A stretch of 62,834 nt of DNA. Source: a virus. A model generated the notes under the pieces. It ran no database searches and had not been told where the DNA came from. It saw only the letters and a list, made by a program, of their open reading frames with translations. The translations under genes and the position numbers were made by a program. Each line of letters starts with the position of its first letter. Within the stretch, counting starts at the first letter, position 1. Positions 31,086 through 58,353 of this stretch are shown piece after piece. The DNA is taken from positions 1-62,834 of the IMG/VR virus record IMGVR_UViG_3300047319_000794. One strand, given 5' to 3'.

Positions 31086-31355
31086 TCATGGCCTCACAAG
31101 CGCCGCTGGAATTGGCGCTGATGCCCGCGCCGGACATAGAAGTAGAACGCCATCGCCAAAAGACGGATTCCCCGTGCTGTTGCGGCGCAGCGTGCCAACG
31201 GTAGTATTGCATGCTGCCGCTTGAAGTGCCTGCGCTTCCAGATCATGGATCTGCTCTACATCCATTTTGATGTTGGCGAAATACCCCGACGCGGTGGAGA
31301 TTTGCTGGCCGCACCCGGCGAGCAGGAGCAGGCTGAGAAGCGTGGCGTGGTTCAT
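31086..31355 (-). CDS. Small lipoprotein, possible outer spanin
   Basis: An 89-residue protein with a lipobox (LLSLLLLAGCGQQ), so Cys15 would be lipidated and the protein placed in the outer membrane. It is coupled to the holin gene by ATGA. In Gram-negative phages, a short lipoprotein beside holin and endolysin is usually the outer spanin (Rz1-like). The typical Pro-rich Rz1 body is absent, so this assignment is tentative. It may work with the inner-membrane protein at 32381-32851 or 32848-33174. Confidence 0.6.
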   Translation of the reverse strand: MNHATLLSLLLLAGCGQQISTASGYFANIKMDVEQIHDLEAQALQAAACNTTVGTLRRNSTGNPSFGDGVLLLCPARASAPIPAALVRP

Positions 31356-31696
31356 AGCTGGCTGCCCGTTGTCGTGGTGACGGTAGCAGGTGGTGCGTTG
31401 ACGGTGGTCGTGGTCGGCGGAGTCTGTGTGGCGATTGTCGTCTTGTCCTGCGACCCCTTTGAACTCCCAAAATAGAAAGCCATCGGCATCAGCGACGTGG
31501 CGATTACGGTGCCGGCGATGGCGCCCTGGAGCGCGTTGAGATCCTTGATCAACATGACGCCCATTACAGTGAGCGCGGCGATCGTCATGCCATACATGGC
31601 AACGATGAACTGAGGGGAACGAAGGGAATCGTTCACGGCCTGAGTTTTTTCGGCCGATGTGGTCACCACTGGTGCTGTCGTTGTCGTCTCGCTCAT
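31352..31696 (-). CDS. Holin-like protein
   Basis: A 114-residue protein with two hydrophobic segments (FIVAMYGMTIAALTVMGVML; ALQGAIAGTVIATSLMPMAF) and a Thr-rich tail. The segment ending in FYFGSSKGSQDK is a pattern I recognise from phage holin-like proteins. It is coupled to the endolysin by ATGA. It would form the inner-membrane lesion that times lysis. Confidence 0.75.
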   Translation of the reverse strand: MSETTTTAPVVTTSAEKTQAVNDSLRSPQFIVAMYGMTIAALTVMGVMLIKDLNALQGAIAGTVIATSLMPMAFYFGSSKGSQDKTTIATQTPPTTTTVNAPPATVTTTTGSQL

Positions 31697-32211
31697 ACGT
31701 TGGTTCCCTTCACGGCTTCAACCGCCGCGTCATAATTCGCTGGCCACCTGTCCGGCCCCGGCTTTCCCGGCCGCCAGAGGGCCGCGTAATAGTGCCAGGC
31801 AGCATCCTGCATTCCGACCAACGGCAGTCGCGCCGGATCCGTCCAGAGCAACAGCCGCGCGAACGCCACCGCGAGGTGATCGCCTTTGACGGTCGCCATG
31901 AGACCCCAGGCATTTGTTGCGTTGCTCGGGATGCCGGAGGCCAGACACGCCGCCGAGGCCATCTTGGTCGAAGCGGGATGCGTCAGGACGCTTTTGACGC
32001 CACCCCCTCTCTCGAATTGCCAGAAGCCGTGCGCGGGCCCGTTGCCACCTTGGACACGAGCGGACCACGCTGATTCCTGGCCGGCGATGGCGAACATCAA
32101 CACGCGCGCCCGATCATCGGATGGAATGTGCCACCCCGGCAGAGCGGCGCACCACGCGAGGCCGGGGTCAAGAGTCGCGGCAAGGAATTCGGCCGCTGTC
32201 GTTTCGCTCAT
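31693..32211 (-). CDS. Endolysin (lysozyme/transglycosylase-like)
   Basis: A 172-residue protein with AIAGQESAWSAR at 41-52 (probable catalytic Glu46) and HGFWQFERGGG at 61-71, the arrangement of lysozyme-like glycosidases in the GH19/GH24/lytic transglycosylase superfamily. No signal peptide is visible, so it needs the holin for release. It is followed by the holin and lipoprotein genes in a coupled lysis cassette. It cleaves the peptidoglycan glycan chain. Confidence 0.8.
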   Translation of the reverse strand: MSETTAAEFLAATLDPGLAWCAALPGWHIPSDDRARVLMFAIAGQESAWSARVQGGNGPAHGFWQFERGGGVKSVLTHPASTKMASAACLASGIPSNATNAWGLMATVKGDHLAVAFARLLLWTDPARLPLVGMQDAAWHYYAALWRPGKPGPDRWPANYDAAVEAVKGTNV

Positions 32212-32371: not shown

Positions 32372-32380
32372 TTTCACACC

Positions 32381-33523: not shown

Positions 33524-33699
33524 CTGCTTTGCAGGTTGTATCTTTTATAGTCATCGGCGCGTTATTTGTCGGGATTGGCGTGAAGATTCTTAAAAAGTGC
33601 ATGACCTTGGATAACAATTATGTGCTTATCCTGATCAGTTTGGTTTTTGAAATCTCTGGGTTTTTGTTTATCCTGGGCGCCATTTTGCCTCACAACTAA
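33520..33699 (+). CDS. Opposite-strand membrane protein, 59 aa
   Basis: From ATG 33520 (ATGA overlap); 59 residues with two membrane helices (VVSFIVIGALFVGIGVKIL; VLILISLVFEISGFLFILG). It is clearly less GC-rich than the flanking genes, a sign of separate origin. Its TAA (33697-33699) overlaps the tailspike's TAG on the other strand (33696-33698). Forms a moron pair with the gene at 33275. Confidence 0.7.
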   Translation: MTALQVVSFIVIGALFVGIGVKILKKCMTLDNNYVLILISLVFEISGFLFILGAILPHN

Positions 33700-34781
33700 C
33701 CCTGCGTGCTGCCACTATTGGCGAGTAGCTGGATACCACGGGCGTTGCAGAGTTTGGCGATCTGATTGTTCCGCGCGGGCGACAGTTCGATCAGGCTGTG
33801 CGCGGCGCCGGTGGACAGCAGTTGGCCACCCATGAGGACGGAGTCAACAGCCTGTAGGGTCACGTCCTCGCCAGTGTTGCCCGTTGCGTGCAGCCCGATC
33901 ACGCTATGGTTCCGGCCGGCGAGGTCCACCCCCCGGCCGCTGTCGTAAGCAAAGACCCCAATAAGCCGGTTCCTGACGCATGTGTCGGTGAGCCGGATCG
34001 CGGCGGCACTCTGGCCAGCCTGCCACTCGCCGCCTGTGACGCTCGATTCCATGACGCCATCGAACACCAAGCCGCCCCATTCCGCGCTTGAGAAGCTGGA
34101 CGCCGCGACATGAGCGAAAGCGTAATCCTGAATCAGCAACCCACCGCGCTGGCCATTGCTCGAGCAACCAACCAGCCGCGCGCCCTCTGCTTGGTGCAAC
34201 GCTTGACCTTCCGAGGTGCCGTGGATTTCAATCCCCCACTCCGTCCCGTTTTGAACCTTGATACGCGCCCCTTCAAAGTCGCCGCAGTCGACGGCATATA
34301 ACCCGTGTGCGCAATATTCCGCCGTGAGATCGACCACACTCGCGTCGTTGTGTCGTTCAAGGTAAATCGCGGACCACCAGTTTTTTGCCCATAGGTCGCG
34401 ATATATCCCCTTGCCAATTTCATCCCCGACAGGCCCGCGCACGGCGATCCCAATGCCTGCGTGGCCGTTGCTTGGATATGCTGGTCCATTGCACATCTCC
34501 AGCGACGAAACCTCTATCCATGCCTCCCTGGCGAACGGCGCGGTATACAGGAAAATGCCCGCGTTGGGGATCGAGGTACTAATCCGCGTCGCGCCCGCTC
34601 CCGCGCCTTTGACCGTGACCCGAGACCTGCCGCCCGTGGTCAGTTCCAGGTCGTTCACGACCCAATCGCCCGGTGGAAAGAATAGCCCAGGCGCTCCGTT
34701 CGCGAGGACGTCACGGAGCACCGTCGTGCAGTCGATGCCTTCCCAGGCGCCGGCCTCGCGCACGTTAGCAAGATCGCTCAT
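33696..34781 (-). CDS. Beta-helix tailspike-like protein, 361 aa
   Basis: A 361-residue protein with a pectate-lyase-type beta-helix pattern: short strands each turning at Gly/Asn-rich corners (GLFFPPGDWVVNDLELTTGG, IEVSSLEMCNGPAY, GVMESSVTGGEWQAG). It lacks the usual virion-attachment N-terminus. Unlike its neighbours it has no signal peptide. Its start overlaps the upstream gene (ATGA). It may bind or cleave surface polysaccharide. The ending SGSTQG is short. Confidence 0.75.
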   Translation of the reverse strand: MSDLANVREAGAWEGIDCTTVLRDVLANGAPGLFFPPGDWVVNDLELTTGGRSRVTVKGAGAGATRISTSIPNAGIFLYTAPFAREAWIEVSSLEMCNGPAYPSNGHAGIGIAVRGPVGDEIGKGIYRDLWAKNWWSAIYLERHNDASVVDLTAEYCAHGLYAVDCGDFEGARIKVQNGTEWGIEIHGTSEGQALHQAEGARLVGCSSNGQRGGLLIQDYAFAHVAASSFSSAEWGGLVFDGVMESSVTGGEWQAGQSAAAIRLTDTCVRNRLIGVFAYDSGRGVDLAGRNHSVIGLHATGNTGEDVTLQAVDSVLMGGQLLSTGAAHSLIELSPARNNQIAKLCNARGIQLLANSGSTQG

Positions 34782-37684
34782 ACTAACACGATATAGAAAC
34801 GCCAGTCCGACAGAACCGCGGTCGGCCCCGTCGCGCGAAGCTGAATATAATCGAACCCTGGCGTTGATGGCAGAGCACTCGTTCCGACCTTCAGCGTTGC
34901 GGTGCCATCGCTATTGGATGTGATCGCATATCGGCCGACCGGTGCCCAAGGAATATACCAACTGAGATACATAGGGTTCTGAATAATCGACCACGTCGTG
35001 CCTGCCCCGAACGGGTTCGGTGGGACTGAGACCCCGGAACCATAGGGCGTAATGGTGGCGATGGTCGTGCCAGCGGCGAGACCGTTGGCGACCCGGATGT
35101 CGTCATTGCCGGGGTCTTGCTGTGTGTCAGTGAAATTATTAAAGGAGTCGCCATCGTATATATTGGACAAGAACCCCGGCCTGGACGCGGGAGGTGTTGC
35201 CGTGCCTGGGTCAGTGAAACTCAACGCGAACGCGCCAGTGAGGGTTGTCGATCCAGTTTCATTAACCGTTGATCCAGGGCTGACCGGATAGTTGGTTTCC
35301 TTTTTCCATTCTCCAGGCGGGTCCGGTGAAGGGGGTATGAATGCGGGCACGGGCGCTAAGTACCAACTATTGGTCGTCAGATTGACGATGGGAGTGGCGT
35401 TATTAACCGGGTTAGTGACGCCGTAGATTCCAACACCCCAGGCCGTTTCCCAATGATTGCCGGACGGCGTCATTATGTCGAATCGGCAATTGGAGATCGT
35501 AACGTCGGTTATCCGGTCAGGTAAATACCCCACAGTGGGAAATACGTTGGAGCATATGGCAATAGCCCATGGCCCCTGAGCGTTTGGACCCTTTTGTATG
35601 TCGCAACCGTCAATGGTGCCAATACCGCCCTCCGCCACATCTATCTGAGCGGAAGCGGAGCCGCGTTCAGAATCGTATATACGGGAATTTGTGATGCTGA
35701 ATTTGTATGCACGAGTTTTGACGTTATGCCCCTGCATGGTCCCCCACATCAAGCAATTATCCATGATAAAGTTGGCGCAGTCGCCACAATATACGGCGTG
35801 GGTGTTGCCCGCTGAAACGGTTTCCGTCCCCGCTCCATAATGCTCGCAGTTGGTCATGACGGTATTGATACTGCCGTCTCCGCTCTGCAATCCCTGGTCG
35901 CAGTCGTGGATGTAGCAATTATCTTCCCATATATCACCCCACGATTCGGCATTTTTCCGAATACCGGAAACGCCATGGAATACGTCTCCATGAACGAAAC
36001 TTATTTCAAGTCCGGTGATAATCACGTCGCCGTGCTGGATATTGAAAAACCCTTTTCCGGCCTCGCTCCCACTGTTCAAGACTGACCCTATCAGCCCGCC
36101 GACGCGAGGACGCGGGCCGGTAGTGTCAGAATTTTGAATCTTAAAGGGACCGAACCAACCCGCGTTGGAGAACGCCAGATCATCCGCATAATAATCCGGG
36201 TCTGCGTTGTATACGATGTTGATCGTCGCTCCGGCAACGGAACCACTCACGGGGAAACTGTTGAAGCGGGGTTCAAGGTCAGCGATATGCTCAAAGCCAT
36301 TGGCGCCGTGTGCCGCGACCATGCCCTGTCCGACCCAGTAAGTGGGGCCGACCTTGTGCGCGACATTGACCGCGAACGTGTTCGTGCAACGCGTCCCCGC
36401 GTTATCCATGGCTGTGATCGTCAGTTGATAAGCCGAGCGTCCGTGCATCCAACCATCGGTCGCGGAGAGCATTCCAGTTGCTGTTATCGCACCGGTCGTG
36501 GGGTCGCATGTGAACGGCAGTACCGGGGTGCCAAACAGGCCAAGTGTTTCGGGGTAGTCGTCCGGCGTTGAGCACGTCCAATGCGTTGCCGTCATACCCG
36601 ATACAGATGGCGTCCCGATCGACTGCGTCATTAGGTAGTTGTCCAGGCTGGAACTGGGCGTGAAGCTGAGATTCCCAGAAGGTAGGTTGGTTCCAGCACC
36701 AACCGTAATGGAGAACGGAAATGAAGTGCTCAACGCACCATCGGTGACAAGCGCGACAAGGTTTTTTACGCCCGCGGATAATGTGGTCAAATTCTTTAGT
36801 TGTGCGAGAGAGGGATCGATACTCCCGTTTGGGTTGATGAAAAAGGCCCCGCCTGGGTTGGTCGTGAGACTAAGAACCCCGGTGAAATCTTCATCGTAAT
36901 ATTTGAAGGTGCCGAGGACTGTCGAGGCTGGCGTGTTGTCGTAGACCGTCAACGCTGGGATAAATTGAACCACGGGCGGCTGCTCATGGACAACCCAAAG
37001 CGGTTGCTGCGCACTCGTGTCCCCCCCTACCGTTATCGTGACGAGGTAAGCGCCGACGATCGCAGTCAGATCGGTGACAGCGGATTTGGTGACAATCTGA
37101 GCCCCGCGAGATGGCTCCGATCCGAATACTACAATGTCGAAATGACCAGACGGGTCATTCAACGTAACCGCACCAGTCCCCTGCACATAGACTCGGTCGG
37201 GAAACTGGGCGGGAAGGGATGGTTGATTGTCGGTCAGAACATTACCACCAATCCAGGCGTAATTTTGGCCAGGGGCCAGAACTGTCACCGGGATGGTTTG
37301 ACTGTAACTACCACTGCCGTCAGTGGCCGTAATCGTTGACGAATATACTCCCGCATCCGCTCCGGCATAGCCGTAGCAAGGCATCGTCAGCATGTTGTTT
37401 GTCATGGACGCCAGCGGCTGCCCCGTCGGAATATAGATCGCACCGTCAACGGAGAATGTGACAATGCCAGACAGCCCGCGAACAAAGCCAGACCCCATAC
37501 TCCATCCGCATTGAACATTATCCTGCGTTATCGTGATGCTGGAGGGGAAATAGATGCCAGGAGGGAAGTCGCTTCCGCCGCCGCTTGCTGGAGCAACGCC
37601 GGCACGCGGGAAGCGCGCATATGCTGATGAGGGCACAAGCAACGATGACAACGCTGAACCAAGCAGCAGGCGACGTCGCATCAT
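34778..37684 (-). CDS. Large secreted-type fibre/beta-helix protein, 968 aa
   Basis: From ATG 37684 (ATGA overlap). The N-terminus has a signal peptide: MMRRRLLLGSALSSLL, then VPSSAYA before RFPRAG. The next 500 residues carry repeated Ig- or cadherin-like domains (FSVDGAIYIPTGQPLAS, ATDGSGSYSQTIPVTVLAPG, TDGALSTSFPFSITVGAG). The rest is a beta-helix (VMTNCEHYGAGTETVSAGN). It reads as a cell-surface or tail adhesin. A cleavable signal is very unusual for a phage virion protein; four other genes nearby share it. Confidence 0.72.
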   Translation of the reverse strand: MMRRRLLLGSALSSLLVPSSAYARFPRAGVAPASGGGSDFPPGIYFPSSITITQDNVQCGWSMGSGFVRGLSGIVTFSVDGAIYIPTGQPLASMTNNMLTMPCYGYAGADAGVYSSTITATDGSGSYSQTIPVTVLAPGQNYAWIGGNVLTDNQPSLPAQFPDRVYVQGTGAVTLNDPSGHFDIVVFGSEPSRGAQIVTKSAVTDLTAIVGAYLVTITVGGDTSAQQPLWVVHEQPPVVQFIPALTVYDNTPASTVLGTFKYYDEDFTGVLSLTTNPGGAFFINPNGSIDPSLAQLKNLTTLSAGVKNLVALVTDGALSTSFPFSITVGAGTNLPSGNLSFTPSSSLDNYLMTQSIGTPSVSGMTATHWTCSTPDDYPETLGLFGTPVLPFTCDPTTGAITATGMLSATDGWMHGRSAYQLTITAMDNAGTRCTNTFAVNVAHKVGPTYWVGQGMVAAHGANGFEHIADLEPRFNSFPVSGSVAGATINIVYNADPDYYADDLAFSNAGWFGPFKIQNSDTTGPRPRVGGLIGSVLNSGSEAGKGFFNIQHGDVIITGLEISFVHGDVFHGVSGIRKNAESWGDIWEDNCYIHDCDQGLQSGDGSINTVMTNCEHYGAGTETVSAGNTHAVYCGDCANFIMDNCLMWGTMQGHNVKTRAYKFSITNSRIYDSERGSASAQIDVAEGGIGTIDGCDIQKGPNAQGPWAIAICSNVFPTVGYLPDRITDVTISNCRFDIMTPSGNHWETAWGVGIYGVTNPVNNATPIVNLTTNSWYLAPVPAFIPPSPDPPGEWKKETNYPVSPGSTVNETGSTTLTGAFALSFTDPGTATPPASRPGFLSNIYDGDSFNNFTDTQQDPGNDDIRVANGLAAGTTIATITPYGSGVSVPPNPFGAGTTWSIIQNPMYLSWYIPWAPVGRYAITSNSDGTATLKVGTSALPSTPGFDYIQLRATGPTAVLSDWRFYIVLV

Positions 37685-40494
37685 GGCAGAAACTCCTGCG
37701 CCCCAATATCGTAACGCCCCGACTGGGGACGCGTCGTGTTGAAGATGTCTTTTATGTTTGTGTAGCCGGAGGGGTAACCGGCACTGGCCGCAGCCGCCGC
37801 ACCGTAAATGTCCGCGCTCGTGTTCTTGACCCGCAAATCGAGGCTTCCCCCTATCGACGGGTTGACGAACTGATTGGCGGTAGTCAGACCGCCGCATGTG
37901 CTTGAATTACCAGGGGGGCCGCACGTTGTGCCAAGGCCTGGCATCGCCGCCGATGTGACGGACTGCGATGTCCCTGATATAGTGTACGTGGCAACACCAC
38001 CACCCGAGGCGAGATCCGTGGCGTTGTTTGATGTCGAGGTAAAAGACGGCGTGCTACCGGTTCCCAAAGCCCATGCGCGCGCGAAGCCGAAACAACCTGT
38101 GTTCTGGATATGCTGGGGAGTAAACTGACCGAATGCGGAGATGCACGTCGAGTTCGTTGTTCCCGGTGCCGCAATAAGCGTCGCGTTGACAAGGATGCTC
38201 TCGAACTTTCCGGTGAAACCGTAAGACTGCGCGGTGTTTCCTCCGTAGATAATCGTCGTATCAACGACCGAACATCCGCCATCGCAGTTGATCGTTCCAG
38301 GCCCCGCGTCGGATTGAATGATGTCCTGACTAAATACCAGACCATTCGCGTGCATGGCGCTAGGCAAGCCCCCAGTAATTCCAGCGATCGAAATCCACTG
38401 CGTGGAGTGGCACTGCACTCGCGACAGGATCGCGTAGTTGTCTCCGACTCCTATGCAACTGCCCGTATAGGCGGTTGACCCAGAGCCCGTGTTCGCCGTG
38501 TTGGAAAAGAGGGTGACACCTTTCGTTGAATCAACGCGAAGTGGCCCCGCTGAACCTGTGACGTTATCGACAAAACTATCGCCAGGAGCGGCGGTGATAG
38601 TTGAGATGAAAAGCCCATTACTACCACCATTGCAAGACGTTTGAGCAACGTTGCTAATAGCGGTCCCCCAGCTATTGCGGCACCATGGATTGATGTCTCC
38701 TTGCAGATCCATGTGATGATCCCAGGGGATTGGGTCTAATTCACTGTTTTGGCCCCCTTGATAAAGCTGCCTCGCCTGCCCTCCATACCAGAGATTGATG
38801 TTCACATTGTAGAATTGGCCTGTTTCAGACTGGCCATTGCTCCAATACTCATGCGTCCACGGGGTCGCCCCCGAGGTGTAAGTCAGCGTGCCATAGTAGT
38901 TCCAGGTGCAAGTCCCATCCGTAATGCCTGATCCCGTGCCCGTTGGTCCACCACTACTCGCGGACGTGCAGGTGAAAGGAGAGGAGGGGGATGCGGTCAT
39001 AATGTATGACTTCCCGCCGTTCACCACGATCGCCGAATTATAATAGGGCGCGTTCGCCTGCCAAGGATAATCGTCTATCATCAGGTCGGACAATACCACG
39101 TAGTCAATTTGTTTCAGACAGGTCCATGTTATACCATTGTCCGAGACCGTCGTGGCGCCCGACCACCCGCCAGGCGTGGAGCCGTCCAATCCGCCGCCCG
39201 TGGCCGCTGGAACCGCACACGATGCGAACCCAGCCGGCTGACTGCCTCCTGTCGTCCCCCCAGAGCCGGTGACTGCCCACAGGTAAAGCGGCTGACCGCT
39301 GGTGTAGCCGCCTCCTGGCGTGTGTCCAGGCCCCGCGACGACCCGCGTGGCTGCTGCCTGTGACGTGCCTGCTGTCCAGGGCGGCGCATTGGCGACGTTG
39401 CGTACCATGGGAGCCAGCGGCCCCGGCGTTGGGGCCGCTCCGCCAGAGTCGTCCCACGCCACGTAGCTTGACCCAATGATCCCTTCCAGCGTCGAGTTCG
39501 TGGTAAAATTGAAGGTCGCTTTGTCCAGGTTGAAACTCTCAAAAATCGGATACCAGATAAGGCCGGGCAACCCCACCGCGACCCCGGTAAAGTCAGAGAC
39601 ATTGAAACCTGATCCTGGCAGTTTAGGCGAGGATGTGTTGCTCCCATTGAATAATGGCCCGCCCAGATAACCCGAGGTGCCAGTGATGTTGGGAGTGAAC
39701 CATACCTGTTGCGGATCGGAGTCGAGATCCACGAAAGCCGCCGCCGTCACACCATTAACCACGGTGCCCGTCGATGCCGCGTGATTTGAATTGTTATAGT
39801 AAATTCCCCCACTACCACCAAACGAACTCAATCCCGTCGAGAACGCGGTCGATCCGGGATAGTCCGTCGTGTTGGTGAGGGTATTTATCGTCCCTACGAC
39901 AGTGGGTCCGGAGGCCCATCCGAATGCTGGGCCGCCGATCGCCGCGCCCGGTGTAAATGTATAATAAAATTTTCCACTGAATTTTCCATTGTTAGCACGG
40001 CAGTTTTGCCGCGATGAGACGCCGGTTCCAGTCAACGTAACGCCGCCGCCGCTGATCGTTACCCCTGCATTGCAGTCGCCGGAAAGAAACAGGGTAGGCC
40101 CAACGGAAGGACTTGTGATCGTGTCAGGAGGAGAGGTCGCGGATGCTGTGTTTGACCCGGTGCCTGTTACCGTGATCATGCACGCGGCTCCCGCCGATGA
40201 AGGCGGCGTGAACAACGCACTCCACGTATTGCCGCCTCCAGTCGCGAAGCTGGACACGGTAGATGCGCCTGAACAACCGCCCCCCCACGTCGCACTCGTC
40301 AGACCGGAGGGAGCGGCAACAGTGTAGGTGCCAGAGCCCGCGATCGGAGACCCGCCCGCCACTCCGTCAGCCAATGCCGTGAAATGCAAGGTTGGCGAGG
40401 GAGGAGAGACGCTACCAGTGCTGCCATGCGGAAATCGCGCTTCCGCGGAACTCATGAGACAGAGGCAAAAGAGAAGCGCAAGTGCCTTTATCAT
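37681..40494 (-). CDS. Large secreted-type fibre/beta-helix protein, 937 aa
   Basis: From ATG 40494 with GAGGGG upstream. The signal peptide (MIKALALLFCLCLMSSAEA before RFPHGS) is strong and its cleavage context resembles that of the next gene. The early part has Gly/Ser/Thr-rich Ig-like strands (SGTYTVAAPSGLTSATWGG). The middle has a concanavalin-like fold, and the C-terminal third is beta-helical (GTINCDGGCSVVDTTIIYGG). It ends with YDIGAQEFLP. It could be an exported depolymerase or adhesin. Confidence 0.72.
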   Translation of the reverse strand: MIKALALLFCLCLMSSAEARFPHGSTGSVSPPSPTLHFTALADGVAGGSPIAGSGTYTVAAPSGLTSATWGGGCSGASTVSSFATGGGNTWSALFTPPSSAGAACMITVTGTGSNTASATSPPDTITSPSVGPTLFLSGDCNAGVTISGGGVTLTGTGVSSRQNCRANNGKFSGKFYYTFTPGAAIGGPAFGWASGPTVVGTINTLTNTTDYPGSTAFSTGLSSFGGSGGIYYNNSNHAASTGTVVNGVTAAAFVDLDSDPQQVWFTPNITGTSGYLGGPLFNGSNTSSPKLPGSGFNVSDFTGVAVGLPGLIWYPIFESFNLDKATFNFTTNSTLEGIIGSSYVAWDDSGGAAPTPGPLAPMVRNVANAPPWTAGTSQAAATRVVAGPGHTPGGGYTSGQPLYLWAVTGSGGTTGGSQPAGFASCAVPAATGGGLDGSTPGGWSGATTVSDNGITWTCLKQIDYVVLSDLMIDDYPWQANAPYYNSAIVVNGGKSYIMTASPSSPFTCTSASSGGPTGTGSGITDGTCTWNYYGTLTYTSGATPWTHEYWSNGQSETGQFYNVNINLWYGGQARQLYQGGQNSELDPIPWDHHMDLQGDINPWCRNSWGTAISNVAQTSCNGGSNGLFISTITAAPGDSFVDNVTGSAGPLRVDSTKGVTLFSNTANTGSGSTAYTGSCIGVGDNYAILSRVQCHSTQWISIAGITGGLPSAMHANGLVFSQDIIQSDAGPGTINCDGGCSVVDTTIIYGGNTAQSYGFTGKFESILVNATLIAAPGTTNSTCISAFGQFTPQHIQNTGCFGFARAWALGTGSTPSFTSTSNNATDLASGGGVATYTISGTSQSVTSAAMPGLGTTCGPPGNSSTCGGLTTANQFVNPSIGGSLDLRVKNTSADIYGAAAAASAGYPSGYTNIKDIFNTTRPQSGRYDIGAQEFLP

Positions 40495-40507
40495 TCTCAG
40501 CGACCCC

Positions 40508-41533
40508 TCATGGCAGGAATGATATGCTTTGCACGCACATATTCAATGGCGCTGATGTGGTAGAATAAGTCGGCTGCGTCGCAGATGGTGTGGCAAAAAC
40601 TCTGGATGCCATCGCCGCACCTAAAGAATTTCCGAAAGAAGAATCTATGGTCACATCCAAAGAAAACGAACTATCGATGCTGACGGTCCCCCCGGCTGCG
40701 GTGTTGTTTGCTAAATATGCGAGGACAAGGGCGTTGTTCCCCCCTGGCGTAAGGGAATAGCCTACCTGCTGACTGTTGGTGGTGTCATTGCAGCCGCTGT
40801 TGTTTGTGGCGCCTTGATCGAAAGTTGGTGTCCCCGCCTCTCCCCAAACTTCGACGGCAAATCCAATATAAGAAGTGCTGGCAGACGGAACCGCGGTGAA
40901 TGTATGCGATGCGCCTGTCGTCGGAGATATTTTGTATTTACTCGTCATTGCAGCTCCGGTTGACCCTATTGATCCAAACGAAATCAGATCGGAGTAACTG
41001 TTGCTCTGGTTATCTGAGATAACGGGGGCATTGCCAAACCAGCCAACAGTGATGAAAATCAACTTGGCCCCGGTAGAGTTAACCGCTGCCGTCGTGCATC
41101 CGGAAGACGAAGAAGAACTGACGCAGGCTTTCTTATCGATTAGAGTCCAAACAGCGGGGCTGCTGATCGTCACACTTCCAGACGAATTACTCGTCGGAAT
41201 GTTCGTCGTGATGGTAACTGTCCCGGCGCATGCGCCGGTTGGTGTCGGCACGACGATGCCTGTAATCGATCCGCCCGACACACTGGCGACCGAGGTAACG
41301 GAACCGGACCCTGTGCAGGTGGAGTTCCAGGAGTAAGTCCAACCGCTCGTGGATGGATCGGGGCCGGTATAAGTGCCGGTGCATGTGATAGTTGAACTGG
41401 TCGACCCCGTGCCGGGGCAGGAGAAAGATACCGTGCCGCTAGCGGTGGCATGCACAGTGCCAGGCCCTGGACCAATGCCGCCTTGGGCGAAGGCCGACCC
41501 GGCAAGCAGTAGCCAAAGAAGAAAGGCTCTCAT
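40508..41533 (-). CDS. Secreted-type fibre protein, 341 aa
   Basis: From ATG 41533 (TGATG overlap). The signal peptide is MRAFLLWLLLAGSAFA before QGG. A Thr/Ser/Cys-rich region with an Ig-like pattern follows (SFSCPGTGSTSSTITCTGTY), and then a beta-sandwich that looks like a lectin fold (VGYSLTPGGNNALVLAYLA). Several Cys pairs suggest disulfides formed in the periplasm, which fits export. Confidence 0.68.
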   Translation of the reverse strand: MRAFLLWLLLAGSAFAQGGIGPGPGTVHATASGTVSFSCPGTGSTSSTITCTGTYTGPDPSTSGWTYSWNSTCTGSGSVTSVASVSGGSITGIVVPTPTGACAGTVTITTNIPTSNSSGSVTISSPAVWTLIDKKACVSSSSSSGCTTAAVNSTGAKLIFITVGWFGNAPVISDNQSNSYSDLISFGSIGSTGAAMTSKYKISPTTGASHTFTAVPSASTSYIGFAVEVWGEAGTPTFDQGATNNSGCNDTTNSQQVGYSLTPGGNNALVLAYLANNTAAGGTVSIDSSFSLDVTIDSSFGNSLGAAMASRVFATPSATQPTYSTTSAPLNMCVQSISFLP

Positions 41534-42786
41534 CAGCGGATCACCCGCCAGTTGAGTGTGATCGCACCAGGGGTCACCGAGGAATTGGTGTTGTTGCAGA
41601 CCTTAAAGTTGACGTTGTTCGAGGATGGATATGCGATGATTGTCAGCATTCCCGCTACCAATGGTACATATCCCGTGACGGCGGTCGGGTCACCGTTGAA
41701 GCCCCATGAGATGGTGTCTGTTGTTGCCGTGCCCGTCGCCGTGGTCGTGACAGCGGTCGCACATGCCGCGGAGGATATCGAGCTCGTGCCCATCGCGGAC
41801 GTGCCGTTGGCCACGGTAGTGCTGCCATTCGTACTGACTGCCTGGACGCAATCGATCGACGTGCCGTTCGGCTGCAACTGCCAAAATCCGCCAGCGGGGA
41901 TCGTAGTTGAACATCCACCCCCAGAGTTGATGCTCTGACCACTGCTGTTCGTCACGGTCGCGGCGCTTCCGGCGTAGTTGACAACCAACAGGGTTTGCTT
42001 GGCGTCGAACAGGCCGCTGCTGATAGCCGGGATGGTCAGGCCACCGCTGGATATCCAGATCGTGCCGCCCATGTCCGCCGTCGTGACGGTGGGAGACGCG
42101 GCGGCGCGCGTGGAGGCCACCGGCGTCAATGTGGCGTTGGTCCCCGAACCTCCGACCAACAGTGACCCAATTGGAGTAGTTACCGTGGTAACGCCGGTAA
42201 TGGTATGCGTGCCATCAGTCAGGTTCCACGAGCTACCACCGCCGCTCGAACTCGTGCCGCAAGAGAAGCCCGTGCCGCCTGTGTAGTTCAAGTGGTTGCC
42301 GCCTGTGTCAACACACCCCGGCACCGACACGGCTGTTGGTGCGGCCGAACCGCCTGTGACGTTGGCGACAACGGTATTCGCCGCCTGTGCCACATGGGCA
42401 CCGAGAGGGATGCCCGTGAAGTTGGTGCCAACCATGGACTGAAGTCCGGTCCATGTGTTCGCGTGCGAAAGGTTGAGTTCGAAGTTCAACGATCCCGAGG
42501 TCGTTACCGGGCCGCCGGTCGGCGTGAGCGTGCTTCCCGTGCTTGTGCCGCCAACGCTCGTGACGGTGCCAGAGCCACCGCCGCCGCCCGTGCCGAACGG
42601 CCCGACCACGCCGCCGCCGCTACTCTTGCCAAAGAACCCCGCCGACGTGCTCCACATCTGCCCATTCGCAGGCGATCCCGGCGGCGACCCTTTTGGGATA
42701 AGGATAAGACTGTCCATCGGCACGTCGGCCGCCATCGCGTTACCGGCCAGGACGCAGGCCAAGAACCCCCACAGAAATGTTTTCAT
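41533..42786 (-). CDS. Secreted-type tail-fibre protein, 417 aa
   Basis: From ATG 42786 (TAATG overlap). The signal peptide is MKTFLWGFLACVLAGNAMA before ADVPMD. The shaft is Gly/Thr/Val-rich (GSGTVTSVGGTSTGSTLTP). The C-terminus (ISWGFNGDPTAVTGYVPL, then GAITLNWRVIR) matches the terminal domain of many phage fibres. So a typical fibre has a Sec signal where its virion-attachment domain would be expected. Confidence 0.72.
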   Translation of the reverse strand: MKTFLWGFLACVLAGNAMAADVPMDSLILIPKGSPPGSPANGQMWSTSAGFFGKSSGGGVVGPFGTGGGGGSGTVTSVGGTSTGSTLTPTGGPVTTSGSLNFELNLSHANTWTGLQSMVGTNFTGIPLGAHVAQAANTVVANVTGGSAAPTAVSVPGCVDTGGNHLNYTGGTGFSCGTSSSGGGSSWNLTDGTHTITGVTTVTTPIGSLLVGGSGTNATLTPVASTRAAASPTVTTADMGGTIWISSGGLTIPAISSGLFDAKQTLLVVNYAGSAATVTNSSGQSINSGGGCSTTIPAGGFWQLQPNGTSIDCVQAVSTNGSTTVANGTSAMGTSSISSAACATAVTTTATGTATTDTISWGFNGDPTAVTGYVPLVAGMLTIIAYPSSNNVNFKVCNNTNSSVTPGAITLNWRVIR

Positions 42787-43037
42787 TATGCTGGTCCTAT
42801 CCAGAGCGGGCCATTCGCGGCGCCATTGCCATTGATCCAAGGCACGCCGCCACCGGGGTCGGTTGTCCCCCAGGAAATTGACGTAAGGAGAGTCAATATC
42901 TGGGCTGGCGTAAGTGCCGCCAGAATTACCGACGCGGGGATATGAAACGCGCCCGTATTACTGGGGATTGCCACGGGAATCATCAGATTCCCAGCATAGC
43001 CAGTCGAGGTCGACGCGGATATCTTTGTGTCAGCCAT
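42786..43037 (-). CDS. Small tail-fibre-like protein, 83 aa
   Basis: An 83-residue protein beginning MADTKISASTSTGYAGNLMI, a start typical of short tail fibre or fibre-connector proteins, and ending with GNGAANGPLWIGPA. No signal peptide. It lies between two fibre genes and may help assemble or attach them. Confidence 0.6.
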   Translation of the reverse strand: MADTKISASTSTGYAGNLMIPVAIPSNTGAFHIPASVILAALTPAQILTLLTSISWGTTDPGGGVPWINGNGAANGPLWIGPA

Positions 43038-43042
43038 TTACG

Positions 43043-43546
43043 TCATCCCCAATCAACAGTTGACGAGTCTTCGAACAGCCAATTTCCTGATGCATCTTCC
43101 ATCTCCATATTCGACACGCCGCCGCCGCCGGTTGCGCCAATTAAACCGTGTGTCGCCAATGCCGCTTGAAGCGACAAAACGCGACTGGCCAGTTGAGATA
43201 GCGTCACCGAACCCGTGTCGAAAACGCTGGCTTTGTCAGATGTCCCGGTCATCGCGGTCCATCCCGTGTCCCGCGCCGCGACCACCTGATCCACGCCGAC
43301 AATTAAACTGGTATCGGTGGCCACGCTCCCGCCGGATACGTTCAGATTGCCCGAAGCGAGTGTGAGTTGCGGGCTTCCAACCAACGCGCTGCCGGTTGAG
43401 TCGATAACCACGAGTTGGTCCTGGCTTCCGGCGACTGTCGGCAGCAACGAGAAGCCTGCCGCGATGGAAACGAACTCCGCGCGCATCTGGGCAGAGAGAG
43501 CGGACGAGTTGGTTGTCGGCTTACCGGTCGGCGTGTAGTAGGCCAT
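43043..43546 (-). CDS. Fibre attachment protein, 167 aa
   Basis: The N-terminus (MAYYTPTGKPTTNSSALSAQ, then RAEFVSIAAGFSLLPTVAG) is the same domain as at the start of the tailspike at 55378-58353. The rest has beta character and a trimer-like helix (TLSQLASRVLSLQAALATHG). The C-terminus (EDASGNWLFEDSSTVDWG) repeats a motif of the stabilisation protein at 58350-60722. It probably is a short virion-attached adaptor for a fibre. Confidence 0.7.
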   Translation of the reverse strand: MAYYTPTGKPTTNSSALSAQMRAEFVSIAAGFSLLPTVAGSQDQLVVIDSTGSALVGSPQLTLASGNLNVSGGSVATDTSLIVGVDQVVAARDTGWTAMTGTSDKASVFDTGSVTLSQLASRVLSLQAALATHGLIGATGGGGVSNMEMEDASGNWLFEDSSTVDWG

Positions 43547-43555
43547 CCCCGTCTC

Positions 43556-43927
43556 CTACCGCGTCAGTCCGTAGCCGGAGAAAGGGTGCGAACTGTCGCT
43601 GCTGACCACCGACACGGGCGCGATCGAAGGCGCGAGTATCCACGTGACGCCAGCCGCGATGCAGGTTGTATCGCCTGACGAATTCGTGCCCGAGGCCGTG
43701 CCGATTTCATTGATGCACAGTTCCGCGCCTGCCCCGGTCGGGTTATGGATGACGCCGCCCGCCGATCTGTGCCCATTGGCGATCGCGGTGACAGCCGCGC
43801 CGCCGGTCGTGACGGTTTTTACGTCCAGCGTTACGATTTGAAGTGGGCCGGGGAACGTCGTGACGTTCTGTCCCCATGCGCCGGACACGCAAAGGACCGC
43901 CGCCAGAAAGGCCAGTGTGAATTTCAT
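43556..43927 (-). CDS. Small secreted-type protein, 123 aa
   Basis: AAGGACAC precedes the ATG at 43927. The signal peptide is MKFTLAFLAAVLCVSGAWG before QNV. The mature part is a compact beta domain with three Cys (GAELCINEIGTASG, DTTCIAAGVTWIL) that resembles the receptor-type small fibre domain found beside tail genes. It is the first of the five signal-bearing genes in transcription order. Confidence 0.68.
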   Translation of the reverse strand: MKFTLAFLAAVLCVSGAWGQNVTTFPGPLQIVTLDVKTVTTGGAAVTAIANGHRSAGGVIHNPTGAGAELCINEIGTASGTNSSGDTTCIAAGVTWILAPSIAPVSVVSSDSSHPFSGYGLTR

Positions 43928-52496: not shown

Positions 52497-55381
52497 AAAT
52501 TCGCCCCAGCCGCCTGGATTGCCTGGATTGCCTGTTGAAGTGTCGCGGCCCCGCTGTTCACTTGATTAAGCCAATATTGCATCCCCGGCTGATCTGGCAC
52601 GCGGTGCAGATAGGTCATATACGCTTGCCCTAGCTGACCTTCCGGTGATTGCCGGATTGAGTCCGCCGCCGCCGCCGCATTGGGGAACGAACCATTCGCG
52701 ATCTGACCGAGATAGTATTGCAAATCGGCGGCTGACGGTTGGCGACCTAGCTGCTGCTGGAATGCGTTGGTAATCACACCAGTGTTCGCGTGGGTTACCG
52801 CTTCCGGCGAATTTCGGATTGCATTAACCGCTTGATCGTAGGTCACAGCCCCGCTGTTGATCTGGTTGTTCCAATATTGCATGCCAGCAGCATCCGGCGA
52901 GCGGCCGAGATTAGTCTGGAAGACCGACGTCAGTTGGTTTGTATAGTCTGTCGTCGGCTGTGCTGGTTGGGTTGGCTGCGTCGGCTGTGTAGGCTGTGTC
53001 GGTTGAACCGGCTGGTTCGGTTGCGTCGTGACCGGCTGATTGATCAGGCCGCCCTTGTTCCTGCTCGCCGCATAAGTTTGCGCCTCTGGCGACTGAGCGA
53101 TTGAATTGGCGAGAGAGGCGGCCGTCTGACCATTGGCGATCTGGCCCATATAATAGGTAAGATCGGCTTGCGTTGGTAAGCGCCCAAGATCGTTGTAAAA
53201 TGCCGTCGTGATCGTGTTTGTGTTCGCCGTCCGGTAAGCCTGTGCATCGGCCGATTGGGCGATGGCATTAGCCTGCGCCTGGGGGGTCGATCCATTCGCA
53301 ATCTGACCGAGGTAGTATTGCAAATCGGCGGCGGTTGGCTGACGACCGAGGTTTTGCTGGAATGCCTGGTTGATGGCGTTCGTGTTCTGCGTCGTGAGCG
53401 TAGCCTGGTGCTGCTGTGCCTCGGGCGACGCGGCGATGGCGGCTTTGATCTGGTCGATTGTTTGGCCGCTTGAAAGCCAGCCTTGCAGATCGCTGTCGGA
53501 TGGCGCTCGGCCGAGGGTTTGCTGATAGAGGTTTGTGATTGTGTTCGTGTTCGCGACGTTCAACGCCGCCTTGTGCTGCTGCGCTTCCGGTGAATTGGTG
53601 ATGCTCTGACGAATCTGGTCGAGCGTCTGACCGCTCGCAATCGCAGCGAGGTCGCCCTGAAGGTCGCCGGCGGATGGTGCGCGACCGAGGGTCTGTTGAT
53701 AGAAGTCTTTGATCGCCTGACTGTTCGCGGCTGTGTCACTGGAACCCGCGGCAGGCTGTCCGAAAGTCAAAGTCGATTGAATGTCCGGATTACCAGCGAT
53801 CGAACTGAACGCCGCCAGTCCCGCATTCAACGTCGCCACGGTGTTGTTCATCGCGTCCGCCTGCTGCTGCGTGTTCAGGTTCGGACTCGTCATGATGGCC
53901 TGGATGTTGGCCAATGCCTGGTTGTAAAGCTGCGCCGCGCCCTGCGATGTCTGCAACAGCGTCTTGTTGTTGTTCGTGAGGTTCGTGATTGCGAGTTGCG
54001 TATCTTTGTTGATCGCGCCATTGGTCTGAATGTTCTGTAGCGCGGCGGCGTTCACCATGGCCTGCACCGTGACGGCGTTCTGGTTGTTCGCCCCCGCGAT
54101 AAGCTGTTGGGTCTGGGTCTGCTGTTGCGTGACAGACAGAGTCGTATCGCTCTGGATCCGCGCGATTGCCTGCGCACTCACATTGTTTACCGCCGCCAGC
54201 GCCGCCGTGGCGTCTGCCGAGCGCTGCTGAATGGTCTTTTGCGTGTCTGCGGACAGATCGCCCAGGTAAGTTTGCAACGCGGTCTGCGAGGATTGCACCG
54301 CCAGCGTGGTAAGGTCTTGCTTGTCCTGGACGCTGAGATTTGTGTTGGCGTTCAATTGCGCGATGATTTGCGCGGACTGTGTCGCCTTGTCCTGGATCGT
54401 CAGATTGGTATTCGCATTCAGTTGCGCGATGATCTGCGCCGAAGCAGCCTGCTTGTCCGTGGCCGAAAGCGTCGTGCTGGCCTGGATCTGGGCAATCGCC
54501 TGCGCGGAAGCGTTTGCCTTATCGGTGTTTGTCCAAGTTGTTTGTTGCTGGATTTGCGCCAGGATTTGATTGGTCTGGTCCTGCTTATCCTGCGCGCTCA
54601 GTGTGGTGTCGGATTGAATGCGCGCGATTGTCTGGGCAGACGTGGTTTGGATCGTCGCTACGTCCTTCGACCCCGCGATCTGCGCCAACGTGTTTTGCAG
54701 CGTGTTCGATGCACCAGCCGCCGCCTGCCCCGCCGTATTCGCCGCTGCCGCGTTGAATTGTGCGTTCTGCGTGCCGGTCTGCGAATTCGCCAGCGAGGCC
54801 GTGTTCTGTGCCGTTGCCAGGTCCGCCGCGGCCTTGTTCTGCGCCGTGACGGTGTTCGTCATCGCCTGGTTGTAGGTGTTCGCGTCCGCCGTCGCGATAG
54901 GCGTGGCGGCGTTGTAGAGCGCGCTCTGGCCTGCCGAGATGCCCATCGTGGAATTGATCAACCCACGCTGCTGCATCTGGTTGCGCGCGTTCGATTCCGC
55001 CTGCTGCATCAGCGGCGAGCCGGCGGCAATGATGTGCTGGATCTGATCGCTGACTGTCTGATTGGGCGCTACCGTGAACGGCGCCGCTGTATAGCCACTC
55101 GCATCGGCCTTGGTCGCCGTCGCGGTGGCCGGGTTGTATGTCGCGACTGGCGGTGCGCCGCCTCCTGGCACGGCTGTAGGTGGCGATATGGTGGGCGGTG
55201 TAGTCGTGGATATCGGCGCGTTGAGCAGACCAGTAGGAGCCTGCGTGGGCGGCGGCGCAGGTGTCCCGGTTACCTGCGCCAGTGGTGGTGGCGCAGCAGT
55301 CGGGGCCGTCCCCGGCGGCTGGAACAGCGGCGGGATCGAGGGTGTGTTCAGGCCAGGAACCTGAGAGAGGGTGCCGCTCAT
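52493..55381 (-). CDS. Large DUF4214-repeat virion protein, 962 aa
   Basis: From ATG 55381 (ATGA overlap). Residues 1-130 are Pro-rich. The middle has 22-residue helical repeats (IAQLNANTNLTIQDKATQS; IAQLNANTNLSVQDKQD). From about 560 to the end there are seven DUF4214-type units (YQQTLGRAPSAGDLQG; FQQNLGRQPTAADLQYYLGQ; FQTNLGRSPDAAGMQYW), broken by a TQP linker. DUF4214 occurs in S-layer and RTX proteins, where it probably mediates assembly or anchoring. Here it is probably an internal or tail protein delivered at entry. Confidence 0.72.
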   Translation of the reverse strand: MSGTLSQVPGLNTPSIPPLFQPPGTAPTAAPPPLAQVTGTPAPPPTQAPTGLLNAPISTTTPPTISPPTAVPGGGAPPVATYNPATATATKADASGYTAAPFTVAPNQTVSDQIQHIIAAGSPLMQQAESNARNQMQQRGLINSTMGISAGQSALYNAATPIATADANTYNQAMTNTVTAQNKAAADLATAQNTASLANSQTGTQNAQFNAAAANTAGQAAAGASNTLQNTLAQIAGSKDVATIQTTSAQTIARIQSDTTLSAQDKQDQTNQILAQIQQQTTWTNTDKANASAQAIAQIQASTTLSATDKQAASAQIIAQLNANTNLTIQDKATQSAQIIAQLNANTNLSVQDKQDLTTLAVQSSQTALQTYLGDLSADTQKTIQQRSADATAALAAVNNVSAQAIARIQSDTTLSVTQQQTQTQQLIAGANNQNAVTVQAMVNAAALQNIQTNGAINKDTQLAITNLTNNNKTLLQTSQGAAQLYNQALANIQAIMTSPNLNTQQQADAMNNTVATLNAGLAAFSSIAGNPDIQSTLTFGQPAAGSSDTAANSQAIKDFYQQTLGRAPSAGDLQGDLAAIASGQTLDQIRQSITNSPEAQQHKAALNVANTNTITNLYQQTLGRAPSDSDLQGWLSSGQTIDQIKAAIAASPEAQQHQATLTTQNTNAINQAFQQNLGRQPTAADLQYYLGQIANGSTPQAQANAIAQSADAQAYRTANTNTITTAFYNDLGRLPTQADLTYYMGQIANGQTAASLANSIAQSPEAQTYAASRNKGGLINQPVTTQPNQPVQPTQPTQPTQPTQPAQPTTDYTNQLTSVFQTNLGRSPDAAGMQYWNNQINSGAVTYDQAVNAIRNSPEAVTHANTGVITNAFQQQLGRQPSAADLQYYLGQIANGSFPNAAAAADSIRQSPEGQLGQAYMTYLHRVPDQPGMQYWLNQVNSGAATLQQAIQAIQAAGANL

Positions 55382-58353
55382 GGAATGGTACCATGGAGGG
55401 TGCCATCCACGTAGACTTGTACATTGCTTCCGTTCCACTGGAACGCGATGGAATTTGCCGTGTTATAACGAATGCCTAAAGCCGGGACATTAACGAAGTC
55501 AAACGGTGGAACCCCCCCGTTGTTAGCAACCACCTTGGCAGTCCCCGTCCCCGCATCGTGTATGACACTCGAATTCGTGCAAGGACCACACTCGTTGCCA
55601 ACGATCGTATAACGACCACTCACACCAGACGTGACATTGATTGCCCACTGCATGGTCGGCGTCAGTTGATTGTCCCCGATCGTATTGCCACTGATGACAA
55701 AGTCGTTGACGCCGCCTATGACGATGCCATCTTGCGTCCCGCTCATATCGAGGCCGGTATTGAGGATGGTGTTTCCCGTTATGGTGAACCCGTTTCCATC
55801 TTCCAGACCAATGCCGACACCATACTGATTAATGATCGTATTGCCTGTGGCGGTTATATTATTCCCAAAAAGAATGAGGCCGCTGGCAAACGCCCCGCCT
55901 CCTTGCCCGATATGATTACCCGCTACAATGACAGACGCATCAGCGTCAGTGTTCGGATAAATCTGGATCTGCCCGCCGCCGCTAAGCAAATAGCAATGGC
56001 AACCGGAAACCGTATTCCCACTTATCGTCGCCCCAGAGCCTGATGCGCCAATCCCGTCGTTATTCGTATTTGTCACGACGTTATTGTCTATCTGAAGTCG
56101 GTTGTGACTGCCTGGGATGCCCCATATCCCGTAGCACCGAAGAGTGGAAAGAATACCAAACCCCACGACCGTGCAATGATCCACGCGACTGTCAGACCCA
56201 GAAACTCCGATATTGATTTCACCGGCACAATTTATCACCTGGACCCCGGTAACACGAGAATGTGTTCCAGAGACTAATATCTCCGCATACCCGGTTATGT
56301 TGGCGGACCCATTCCCGTCAAACGTCATCCCCTCAACCAGGCAACCCATACCACTCAACTGCAACACGGTCCTCTGTTGCGGCGTGGAGCCGCCCATGGA
56401 TGCCCCTCGCTGAATAACCGTGCCCCACCCCGGCGCTGAAATATGCACATTATCCTTTGTCGAGACGATACCCGTGGTAATCACATAGGTCGTATTAGGC
56501 GATAAGCGGACCTCGCCTCCCGTTGAGGGTAAAGCGTCGATCGCGGCCTGGATCGATCCGCCGGGAGGCACCCCGTAGACGATATTACCGGCGGTCAGCG
56601 TGCCAGGTAAACTCACACCAGCGGCGCTTGCCGTCAGGTAACCGGCCCCCACCACGCCGGAACCGTTCGTTGCCGAGAACATAATGCCACCCGACCCGGT
56701 GATCATGTCGATCTCGCCAAAAGTCGATTGATTGCGCCCGATCGTCAACCCGACATCGCTGAAACCCGTGCTGATGCCCGCGAGATTACCGTTCGGGCCT
56801 GGTCCTATCAAAACCCGGCCATTGATCTGGAACGACGTGTCATTGTTCCATGCGGTAACGACACCGGCTGGTGTCTGATAGATCAACGCGGCGAGAAAGT
56901 TAGAATAGAGCAGCACCCGTTGGTTCTTGCCCATAGCCGTGCCGTTGCCGGTAAAATCAATCCCCATGTCCGAGCGCAACCTGATACCCGCGCCCGTGGC
57001 CGGATCGGCCAAAGACCCCTTGGAAAAGTCGATACCGGCGTTACCGATTACCGCGTCGGACCCAAAGACAGTATTGATCGTCGGGGCGCCGACATAAATA
57101 CCGGTGCCCAGCGTCATTGCGTTGGCAACACCGGTTTGCCATGTAATGGTGCCATCCACGAAGCTGCCGCTGGTGGGCCATGTCGGCATGGATGACCCAG
57201 TCGTGCCAGCGTTCTGCGCTATATAGCACGTTGACACCCCAGCTGATGGCGTTCCCAGGACAATTGTTCCGATATCGAAAGCGTGATTGGAGGACCAGGT
57301 GTTCGTCGGATTGTTCTTCGCCGCGATGAACAGACCTGTACGATTGGCCAGCGTATAATCATAGTATGACTGAGGACTGTCTGGACCGTTGGCCAGAATA
57401 TCGAGCTCCGCACCGTTGGAAGCGAATGCGCCGGGAGCGAGGCCGGTGTTATCCTGCGATTGCACCGCGATGCCCCAGGTGGAATTTTGACCTGTTTTAA
57501 CCACAGTGAATGCACCAGCCACATCCTGGCTGACAAAAGGGTTATTTCCTTGGCTAAGAAGGTTAGCCTGAAAAGCCACTGTCGATCCGTTACTTCCCGC
57601 ATGAGACGTGGCCTGCGTATAGAATGCCGGCATGGCCGCGTAGCCGCCCCACGCCTCCACGGTGAAGCCGGACGACAGGTTCTCCAGAAACACGCGAACC
57701 CCGCTGTAGAGCGGCGCGCCAGTGGTGACCTTGCGTTGAAAATTGATGGTGGAACCAAGGAAATCGAGCGTCGGCAGATTTTCCAGGGTCGGCGTCGAGA
57801 CGCCTGTCGCAGACGCTGGCATAACCCCGGTCACGTTAACATCATTAAGAAATGAAGTTCCTGTAACGTGCAATGATCCACCGGTTATCTGATTGGTCGC
57901 GGTGATCGTGGTTCCAGCGGTTAAAGCGCCTGTGAAAGAACCGCTTCCAGAGACGCTTAAATTCCCCGACGTAATCGCCACACCGCCTAAGATAGAAACT
58001 TGCCCCCCAGACCCATCCTGAATGCCGTTGACGTGAATGCTATTATCGAACAACGAGGTTCCCGTGACGTGCAGCGAGCCCAATGTGGCGATTCCGCTTA
58101 CGTTTATCGAACTATCGAACGTAGCGGCCCCTGTCACATGCAGTGTGTCGAATGTTGGTGATCCAAAGTCTGGCGATGATGTTACCGTTAAGGCCGTTCC
58201 CGTGGAATTGACCACGACGATTTTGTTCGCATTACCAGCGAAATTCGGCAGCAACGCAAACCCAGCGGCAATCGCCGCGAACTCAGCACGAATCGTAGCA
58301 GACAGGCCAGCAGCAGAGGTGCCGGGGTTTCCCGTGGGAGAATAATAACTCAT
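55378..58353 (-). CDS. Tailspike with pectate-lyase-like beta helix, 991 aa
   Basis: A 991-residue protein. Residues 1-55 are the attachment domain (MSYYSPTGNPGTSAAGLSAT, IRAEFAAIAAGFALLPNFAG) shared with the protein at 43043. A shaft of repeated LHVTGT and GI units follows to about 180, and then a large beta domain. From about 590 (GGSIQAAIDALPSTGGEVRL) a right-handed parallel beta helix of the pectate lyase 3 type runs to the end (FTITGNTILNTGLDMSGTQD). It should bind and probably cleave host capsular or O-antigen polysaccharide. Confidence 0.85.
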   Translation of the reverse strand: MSYYSPTGNPGTSAAGLSATIRAEFAAIAAGFALLPNFAGNANKIVVVNSTGTALTVTSSPDFGSPTFDTLHVTGAATFDSSINVSGIATLGSLHVTGTSLFDNSIHVNGIQDGSGGQVSILGGVAITSGNLSVSGSGSFTGALTAGTTITATNQITGGSLHVTGTSFLNDVNVTGVMPASATGVSTPTLENLPTLDFLGSTINFQRKVTTGAPLYSGVRVFLENLSSGFTVEAWGGYAAMPAFYTQATSHAGSNGSTVAFQANLLSQGNNPFVSQDVAGAFTVVKTGQNSTWGIAVQSQDNTGLAPGAFASNGAELDILANGPDSPQSYYDYTLANRTGLFIAAKNNPTNTWSSNHAFDIGTIVLGTPSAGVSTCYIAQNAGTTGSSMPTWPTSGSFVDGTITWQTGVANAMTLGTGIYVGAPTINTVFGSDAVIGNAGIDFSKGSLADPATGAGIRLRSDMGIDFTGNGTAMGKNQRVLLYSNFLAALIYQTPAGVVTAWNNDTSFQINGRVLIGPGPNGNLAGISTGFSDVGLTIGRNQSTFGEIDMITGSGGIMFSATNGSGVVGAGYLTASAAGVSLPGTLTAGNIVYGVPPGGSIQAAIDALPSTGGEVRLSPNTTYVITTGIVSTKDNVHISAPGWGTVIQRGASMGGSTPQQRTVLQLSGMGCLVEGMTFDGNGSANITGYAEILVSGTHSRVTGVQVINCAGEINIGVSGSDSRVDHCTVVGFGILSTLRCYGIWGIPGSHNRLQIDNNVVTNTNNDGIGASGSGATISGNTVSGCHCYLLSGGGQIQIYPNTDADASVIVAGNHIGQGGGAFASGLILFGNNITATGNTIINQYGVGIGLEDGNGFTITGNTILNTGLDMSGTQDGIVIGGVNDFVISGNTIGDNQLTPTMQWAINVTSGVSGRYTIVGNECGPCTNSSVIHDAGTGTAKVVANNGGVPPFDFVNVPALGIRYNTANSIAFQWNGSNVQVYVDGTLHGTIP

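Follow-up and report, generated by a model that had tools for sequence, protein, structure and literature searches.

Predicted exported, cysteine-rich proteins of receptor-binding type in the late genes of a tailed phage, and their possible addition to the virion outside the cytoplasm

In the textbook account, tailed phages assemble in the cytoplasm, where reducing conditions disfavour disulfide bonds in fibres. We know of no tailed phage that has been established to complete its tail outside this compartment, and the open-access literature searched yielded no case of such completion and no report of tail fibres exported by Sec or Tat, an absence which is not proof of novelty. Isolated P22 tailspikes can be added to finished particles in vitro, and a virion capture step is therefore feasible. 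Receptor-binding proteins usually evolve by keeping a constant attachment end while the outer end is swapped. The nearest published matter consists of lambda Lom, which is exported and encoded in the tail-fibre region (PMC12309495), and a statement that phage DGR proteins have no signal peptides (PMC6199706).

Here we describe a cassette of five genes, named Z, A, B, C and D (Table 1), in a 62.8-kb IMG/VR virus record (the window, that is, the whole stretch of 62,834 nucleotides that was analysed), which codes almost wholly on the minus strand. None of 50,697 cultured or named phage records (INPHARED) is a near match to it. The late run of the window descends from ~62 kb to 31 kb. Within it the cassette genes abut or overlap, internal-virion-type genes precede them and lysis-type genes come after, which is a position of tail-type genes among late genes, and the relatives of the cassette likewise adjoin internal virion, terminase or portal genes. 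Elsewhere in the window, genes for a Mom-like DNA modification protein (20921-21679), a DNA methyltransferase (19679-20659) and a radical SAM protein (22783-23835) are clustered, which suggests modified genomic DNA. Among the internal-virion-type genes, 51414-52496 encodes a 360-aa protein that matches a PHROG 'hydrolase' family (E 5e-12) and whose start, FALPRSRTYWLSVFL, is reminiscent of sulfotransferases.

Table 1. Features of the window discussed in the text (aa, amino acids; signal peptides and cleavage sites are predicted)
Feature	Position	Strand	Remarks
Major head protein, portal/adaptor, large terminase	2-11 kb
Primase and DNA-modification genes	17-24 kb
Probable lysis genes, directly after the cassette	31086..32211	-	functions of these and of the next three rows inferred from sequence; phrog_3108 (unknown function)
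Lipoprotein gene	31086-31355	-
Two-TM holin-like gene	31352-31696	-
Muralytic-like gene	31693-32211	-
Leaderless 361-aa protein	33696..34781	-	7 Cys (odd); last of the coupled run
Gene D, 968 aa	34778..37684	-	leader MMRRRLLLGSALSSLLVPSSAYA, cleaved before R; tag RFPRAG; 14 mature Cys
Gene C, 937 aa	37681..40494	-	leader MIKALALLFCLCLMSSAEA, cleaved before R; tag RFPHG; 18 mature Cys
Gene B, 341 aa	40508..41533	-	leader, QGGIGPGPGT tag, then variable domain
B mature N-terminal tag	41456..41485	-	QGGIGPGPGT
B signal peptide	41486..41533	-	MRAFLLWLLLAGSAFA, cleaved before Q
Gene A, 417 aa	41533..42786	-	leader, variable fibre-like body, conserved C-terminal domain
A C-terminal domain, ~95 aa	41536..41820	-	two invariant Cys
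A signal peptide	42730..42786	-	MKTFLWGFLACVLAGNAMA, cleaved before A
Leaderless 83-aa protein	42786..43037	-	no cysteine; overlaps the start of A
Leaderless 167-aa tail protein between exported genes	43043..43546	-	phrog_1219 tail needle, E 1.9e-5
Gene Z, 123 aa	43556..43927	-	open reading frame; leader (score 4.51) and ~100-aa domain with two invariant cysteines
Z signal peptide	43871..43927	-	MKFTLAFLAAVLCVSGAWG, cleaved before Q
Leaderless 991-aa protein	55378..58353	-

An earlier note on this DNA had credited five open reading frames with Sec-type leaders; all five are present on the minus strand at the positions of Table 1, and all score as leaders. Calls were made with a simple rule-based scorer of n-, h- and c-regions (threshold 3.2), which gave 2.5-5.1 for ten known E. 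coli leaders, nine of them above the threshold, and no leader for four of five cytosolic or membrane controls, the remaining one, LacY, reaching 1.9. The window proteins scored 3.95-4.51, and each of the five has the n-, h- and c-regions of a leader and small residues at -3 and -1; the leader of D (MMRRRLLLG...) is also Tat-like, all five being of Sec type. Among the other longest minus-strand reading frames of the window, taken from their first start, only a membrane-like one of 53 aa (32216-32377) scored, and one more (142 aa) was called when internal starts were also tried. False calls arose in 4 of 586 antisense reading frames of at least 100 aa (0.7%) and in 0.8-2.1% of trials with shuffled N-termini of the five proteins, and none of 2361 internal stretches of these proteins passed.

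Z and A represent two unrecognised families among the five window proteins. The Z family is found in 41 IMG/VR contigs as 28 distinct sequences, of which 27 have a leader (for example MKLTLAFLAAVLCASSAWA in L002), the remaining one being cut by the contig end, and 26 of the 27 leader-bearing members have an even mature cysteine count. Its conserved domain sits C-terminally on bodies of 113 to 579 aa; an AF2 model of Z is all-beta (pLDDT 84.5), and a fold search with this model returned weak jelly-roll/cupin-type neighbours only and no clear neighbour in the PDB. The C-terminal domain of A is present in 37 IMG/VR viral contigs, with 56-83% identity and both cysteines invariant over 35 aligned sequences, in proteins of 203 to 2516 aa that all differ outside it apart from the leader, which was found in 33 of 36 distinct sequences, the other three being cut by contig ends. 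It gave no meaningful sequence match in Pfam, PHROGs or the PDB, and none in INPHARED. Its AF2 model (pLDDT 91) has a trimer-domain-like fold with phage tailspikes as top PDB neighbours, which are weak (E 0.06-0.4), and three matches at E < 0.001 (to 6e-4) among predicted viral structures are uncharacterised phage proteins. The leader has thus been kept through sequence drift and body replacement, in every A or Z homologue whose start is present and on bodies of 113-2516 aa; because the loci were gathered by homology to A and Z, these frequencies do not describe phages at large.

Outside the viral contigs, a pattern scan of species genomes gave one match to the A domain and an HMM search of 297 Acidobacteriota genomes gave three, one of which is a prophage with A-B-C directly before terminase and portal genes. 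A distant match (G236, E 5.7e-6) that sits among housekeeping genes was set aside. In a Bryobacterales genome (L043, 5029-11735), an A-B-C module has neighbours that resemble sugar-nucleotide/polysaccharide genes and not obvious phage genes; this module may be a phage remnant or may be in cellular use.

Gene B follows directly after A in most loci, and its 25 proteins can be aligned only across the leader and a Q..[FWGM]PGPG motif at the predicted mature N-terminus, in which PGPG is the sole invariant stretch. When these proteins are aligned on PGPG, which does not depend on the scorer, 19 of the 25 have Ala and 4 have Gly immediately before the mature start. The bodies behind the tag are unrelated (Laminin_G_3 in four, Gly_rich_2 in three, ArabFuran in three, DUF7483 in one), and neither B nor C of the window itself matches a Pfam or PHROG family. 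In other phages, genes adjoining Z encode proteins whose mature part opens with a QP...GPGP-like sequence; this gene lies before Z, not after it, in L064, L080, L082 and L088-L092. A Tat-like leader also occurs in gp70 of EBPR siphovirus 2, a named metagenomic phage (L048, 3806-4969), the gene for which lies directly before a lysozyme gene and whose product matches the B protein of L008, with its DUF7483-type body.

In C and D the conserved mature end is of another kind. The earlier note had read their common A-RFP context as a sign that a leader was copied from one gene to the other; the context is real, but the leaders differ in DNA and protein, only the mature RFP tag is common to both, and copying was therefore rejected. 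Since RFP starts the mature protein and (A)RFPxG recurs in the relatives in L007 and L009, we regard it as a conserved N-terminal tag. The first 137 aa of C are 49% identical in L007, and pattern scans of viral contigs gave no relatives of C and D. The body of D contains beta-helix and cadherin-like regions.

The way in which these proteins change is informative as to their type. In L007, the nearest relative, the products of A, 43043 and 33696 are 87-96% identical to those of the window (88% over the first 126 aa of 33696), whereas conservation stops after the first 123 aa in B and the first 137 in C. A constant N-terminus with a swapped C-terminus is thus seen for B and C, and the alignment of the B family agrees. 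A Tat-exported protein of L057 has homologues, over its residues 48-858, among the tail proteins of 494 phage records, and the seven cultured-phage relatives that were inspected are leaderless; lectin-type B bodies are likewise found leaderless in cultured Pelagibacter, cyano- and Gordonia phages, several of them annotated as tail or virion proteins. Because both kinds of body occur without leaders in tail or virion proteins of cultured phages, leaders have been placed on ordinary tail-type bodies. INPHARED, searched at the DNA and the protein level, held no match to Z, A, C or D of the window, nor to other A and Z domains. Together, we consider it well supported that the bodies are of receptor-binding type.

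The mature parts of the five proteins contain 2, 6, 8, 18 and 14 cysteines, all even numbers, and the neighbouring leaderless genes 43043, 42786, 43964 and 46981-51413 encode none. Counts were then made for complete reading frames of 100 aa or more that lie on the cassette strand, in the window and in the A/Z loci. Of the leader-bearing proteins with any cysteine, 115 of 128 had an even mature count (one-sided binomial P 7e-22), compared with 134 of 288 leaderless ones; because the leaderless set has some spurious reading frames and the proteins are partly related, the P value is indicative only. Cysteine makes up 1.81% of the leader-bearing and 0.90% of the leaderless set, and among proteins of at least 200 aa with at least four cysteines the count is even in 87/93 and 53/91, respectively. 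Exported proteins of up to 2400 aa with up to 72 cysteines, which is unusually cysteine-rich for a phage, are encoded in L012, L041, L037 and others. Moreover, a Tat leader stands in place of the Sec leader in B of L017 (MDRRRFLKTAAGLF...ARA, cleaved before QGGMGPGPGT) and L029, and in the gene adjoining Z in L057, L059, L064, L078, L090 and L091. Two unrelated export systems thus serve the same proteins, which argues that membrane crossing is what selection keeps. Leader conservation, the interchange of Sec and Tat and the even cysteine counts strongly support predicted export into an oxidising compartment, and agree with the earlier reading that fibre-like and beta-helix proteins would be exported.

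The most likely reading, to which we give a probability of roughly one half, is that the five are exported receptor-binding proteins which carry disulfide bonds and are added to the virion at lysis or otherwise outside the cytoplasm. The cassette would then encode proteins of tail-fibre/tailspike type, made late as preproteins that cross the inner membrane by Sec, sometimes by Tat, have the leader removed and become disulfide-bonded in the periplasm. The short conserved mature N-termini, Q..PGPG in B and RFPxG in C and D, would be exposed by cleavage, and we infer that they probably dock on a partner that does not vary; the conserved C-terminal domain makes A a candidate shaft. Lysis would mix cytoplasm and periplasm, and virions would capture the set, so that the receptor-binding organ would be completed outside the cytoplasm. 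Attachment to the virion, taken on its own, could in our judgement fall either way. Leaderless tail-type genes (43043, 42786 and 33696) are interleaved with the exported genes, which speaks against a place in the virion, and adsorption may be served by another organ than the exported set, since the window also encodes the leaderless 991-aa protein, which is probably a fibre of the conventional, cytoplasmic kind. The 43043 protein shares its first 55 aa (58% identity) with the N-terminus of this 991-aa protein and consists of hardly more than that common end and a short tail; speculatively, it could be a virion-side adaptor.

It is very improbable that the hydrophobic N-termini are membrane or virion anchors or start-site artefacts and not export signals: Tat leaders substitute for Sec leaders, Ala or Gly precedes the mature Q in 23 of the 25 B proteins aligned on PGPG, cysteine counts are even in 115/128, and the same starts are kept in close relatives. 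The cassette could also be a lysogenic-conversion or superinfection-exclusion block, encoding envelope proteins that block receptors in lysogeny or early infection, a role that has been proposed for Lom-type genes next to the lambda tail genes. An exported product of the tail region does have a precedent in lambda Lom (PMC12309495), and yet we consider this reading improbable, given that the five genes are embedded in one tightly coupled late run, that no integrase or repressor was recognised among the scanned subset of window genes, and that the five showed no recognisable beta-barrel, lipobox or other anchor and gave no Pfam match to the eight-strand Lom/Ail beta-barrel family; Lom-like or lipoprotein anchoring was accordingly rejected. 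The main rival is a tentative but more serious one, namely that the proteins, although exported and disulfide-bonded, stay off the virion altogether and act as secreted or cell-surface adhesins and polysaccharide-active proteins on the dying cell, on its debris or on neighbouring cells (by loosening slime, by masking receptors on the debris or by making cells clump). The export and cysteine evidence fits it equally well, beta-helix and lectin-like bodies suit polysaccharide binding, the conventional leaderless fibre is also encoded, and the A-B-C module beside sugar-nucleotide genes in one bacterial genome makes a cell-surface role possible. A free protein, however, needs neither a mature N-terminal tag nor a conserved C-terminal domain on unrelated bodies, the constant-end/swapped-end change is typical of virion receptor-binding proteins, and tail proteins homologous to the L057 body are found in 494 phage records. 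Among the functions that the earlier note had offered, addition to virions after lysis may fit best, because tail receptor-binding-type domains, conserved attachment-type ends and swapped outer ends occur together; secreted adhesins or depolymerases are possible, and periplasmic decoys found no positive support.

Strongly conserved export leaders recur on fibre-like proteins in tens of phage contigs of soil type, an Acidobacteriota prophage among them; either some phages finish their receptor-binding organ within the periplasm or upon lysis, or they secrete whole sets of adhesins during lysis. Somewhat less confidently than for the five proteins themselves, we suggest that widespread uncultured tailed phages may complete the virion outside the cytoplasm through Sec/Tat export, periplasmic oxidation and tag capture at lysis; if true, double-stranded DNA tailed phages would have a way of assembling that has not been described before. 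Such exported proteins would be misfiled by gene callers and host-range tools, and fibres of this kind, if made leaderless in the cytoplasm, would probably fail to fold correctly. The class can be searched for with families A and Z and with the tags of B and C/D.

Like A and B, T-even gp37 and gp38 are encoded side by side: the long tail fibre gp37 keeps its C-terminal region conserved, and the small tip adhesin gp38 that comes after it joins a conserved end for attachment to a binding end that varies and is sometimes rich in glycine. Unlike the cassette proteins, gp37 and gp38 are made and assembled in the cytoplasm without leaders; Pfam and PHROG searches gave no sequence homology of the cassette to either, and docking of B on A is a candidate arrangement only. 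The tailspikes of P22, Sf6, LKA1 and phi297 and Klebsiella depolymerases, which are the top PDB neighbours of the C-terminal beta domain of A, have a beta-helix body like that of D, but they are without signal peptides, and their structural matches are weak with no sequence match to A or Z. Tail proteins of the RcapMu gp58 type are the homologues of the Tat-exported L057 body; the inspected relatives lack leaders, and the five window proteins do not match this family. Lambda Lom is a single outer-membrane beta-barrel expressed in lysogeny, whereas the cassette encodes several fibre-like proteins that are multidomain and rich in cysteine and in which no barrel was recognised. The virion proteins pIII and pVIII of filamentous phages are exported by Sec before assembly, but these phages leave by extrusion through the membrane, whereas the carriers of the cassette are tailed double-stranded DNA phages.
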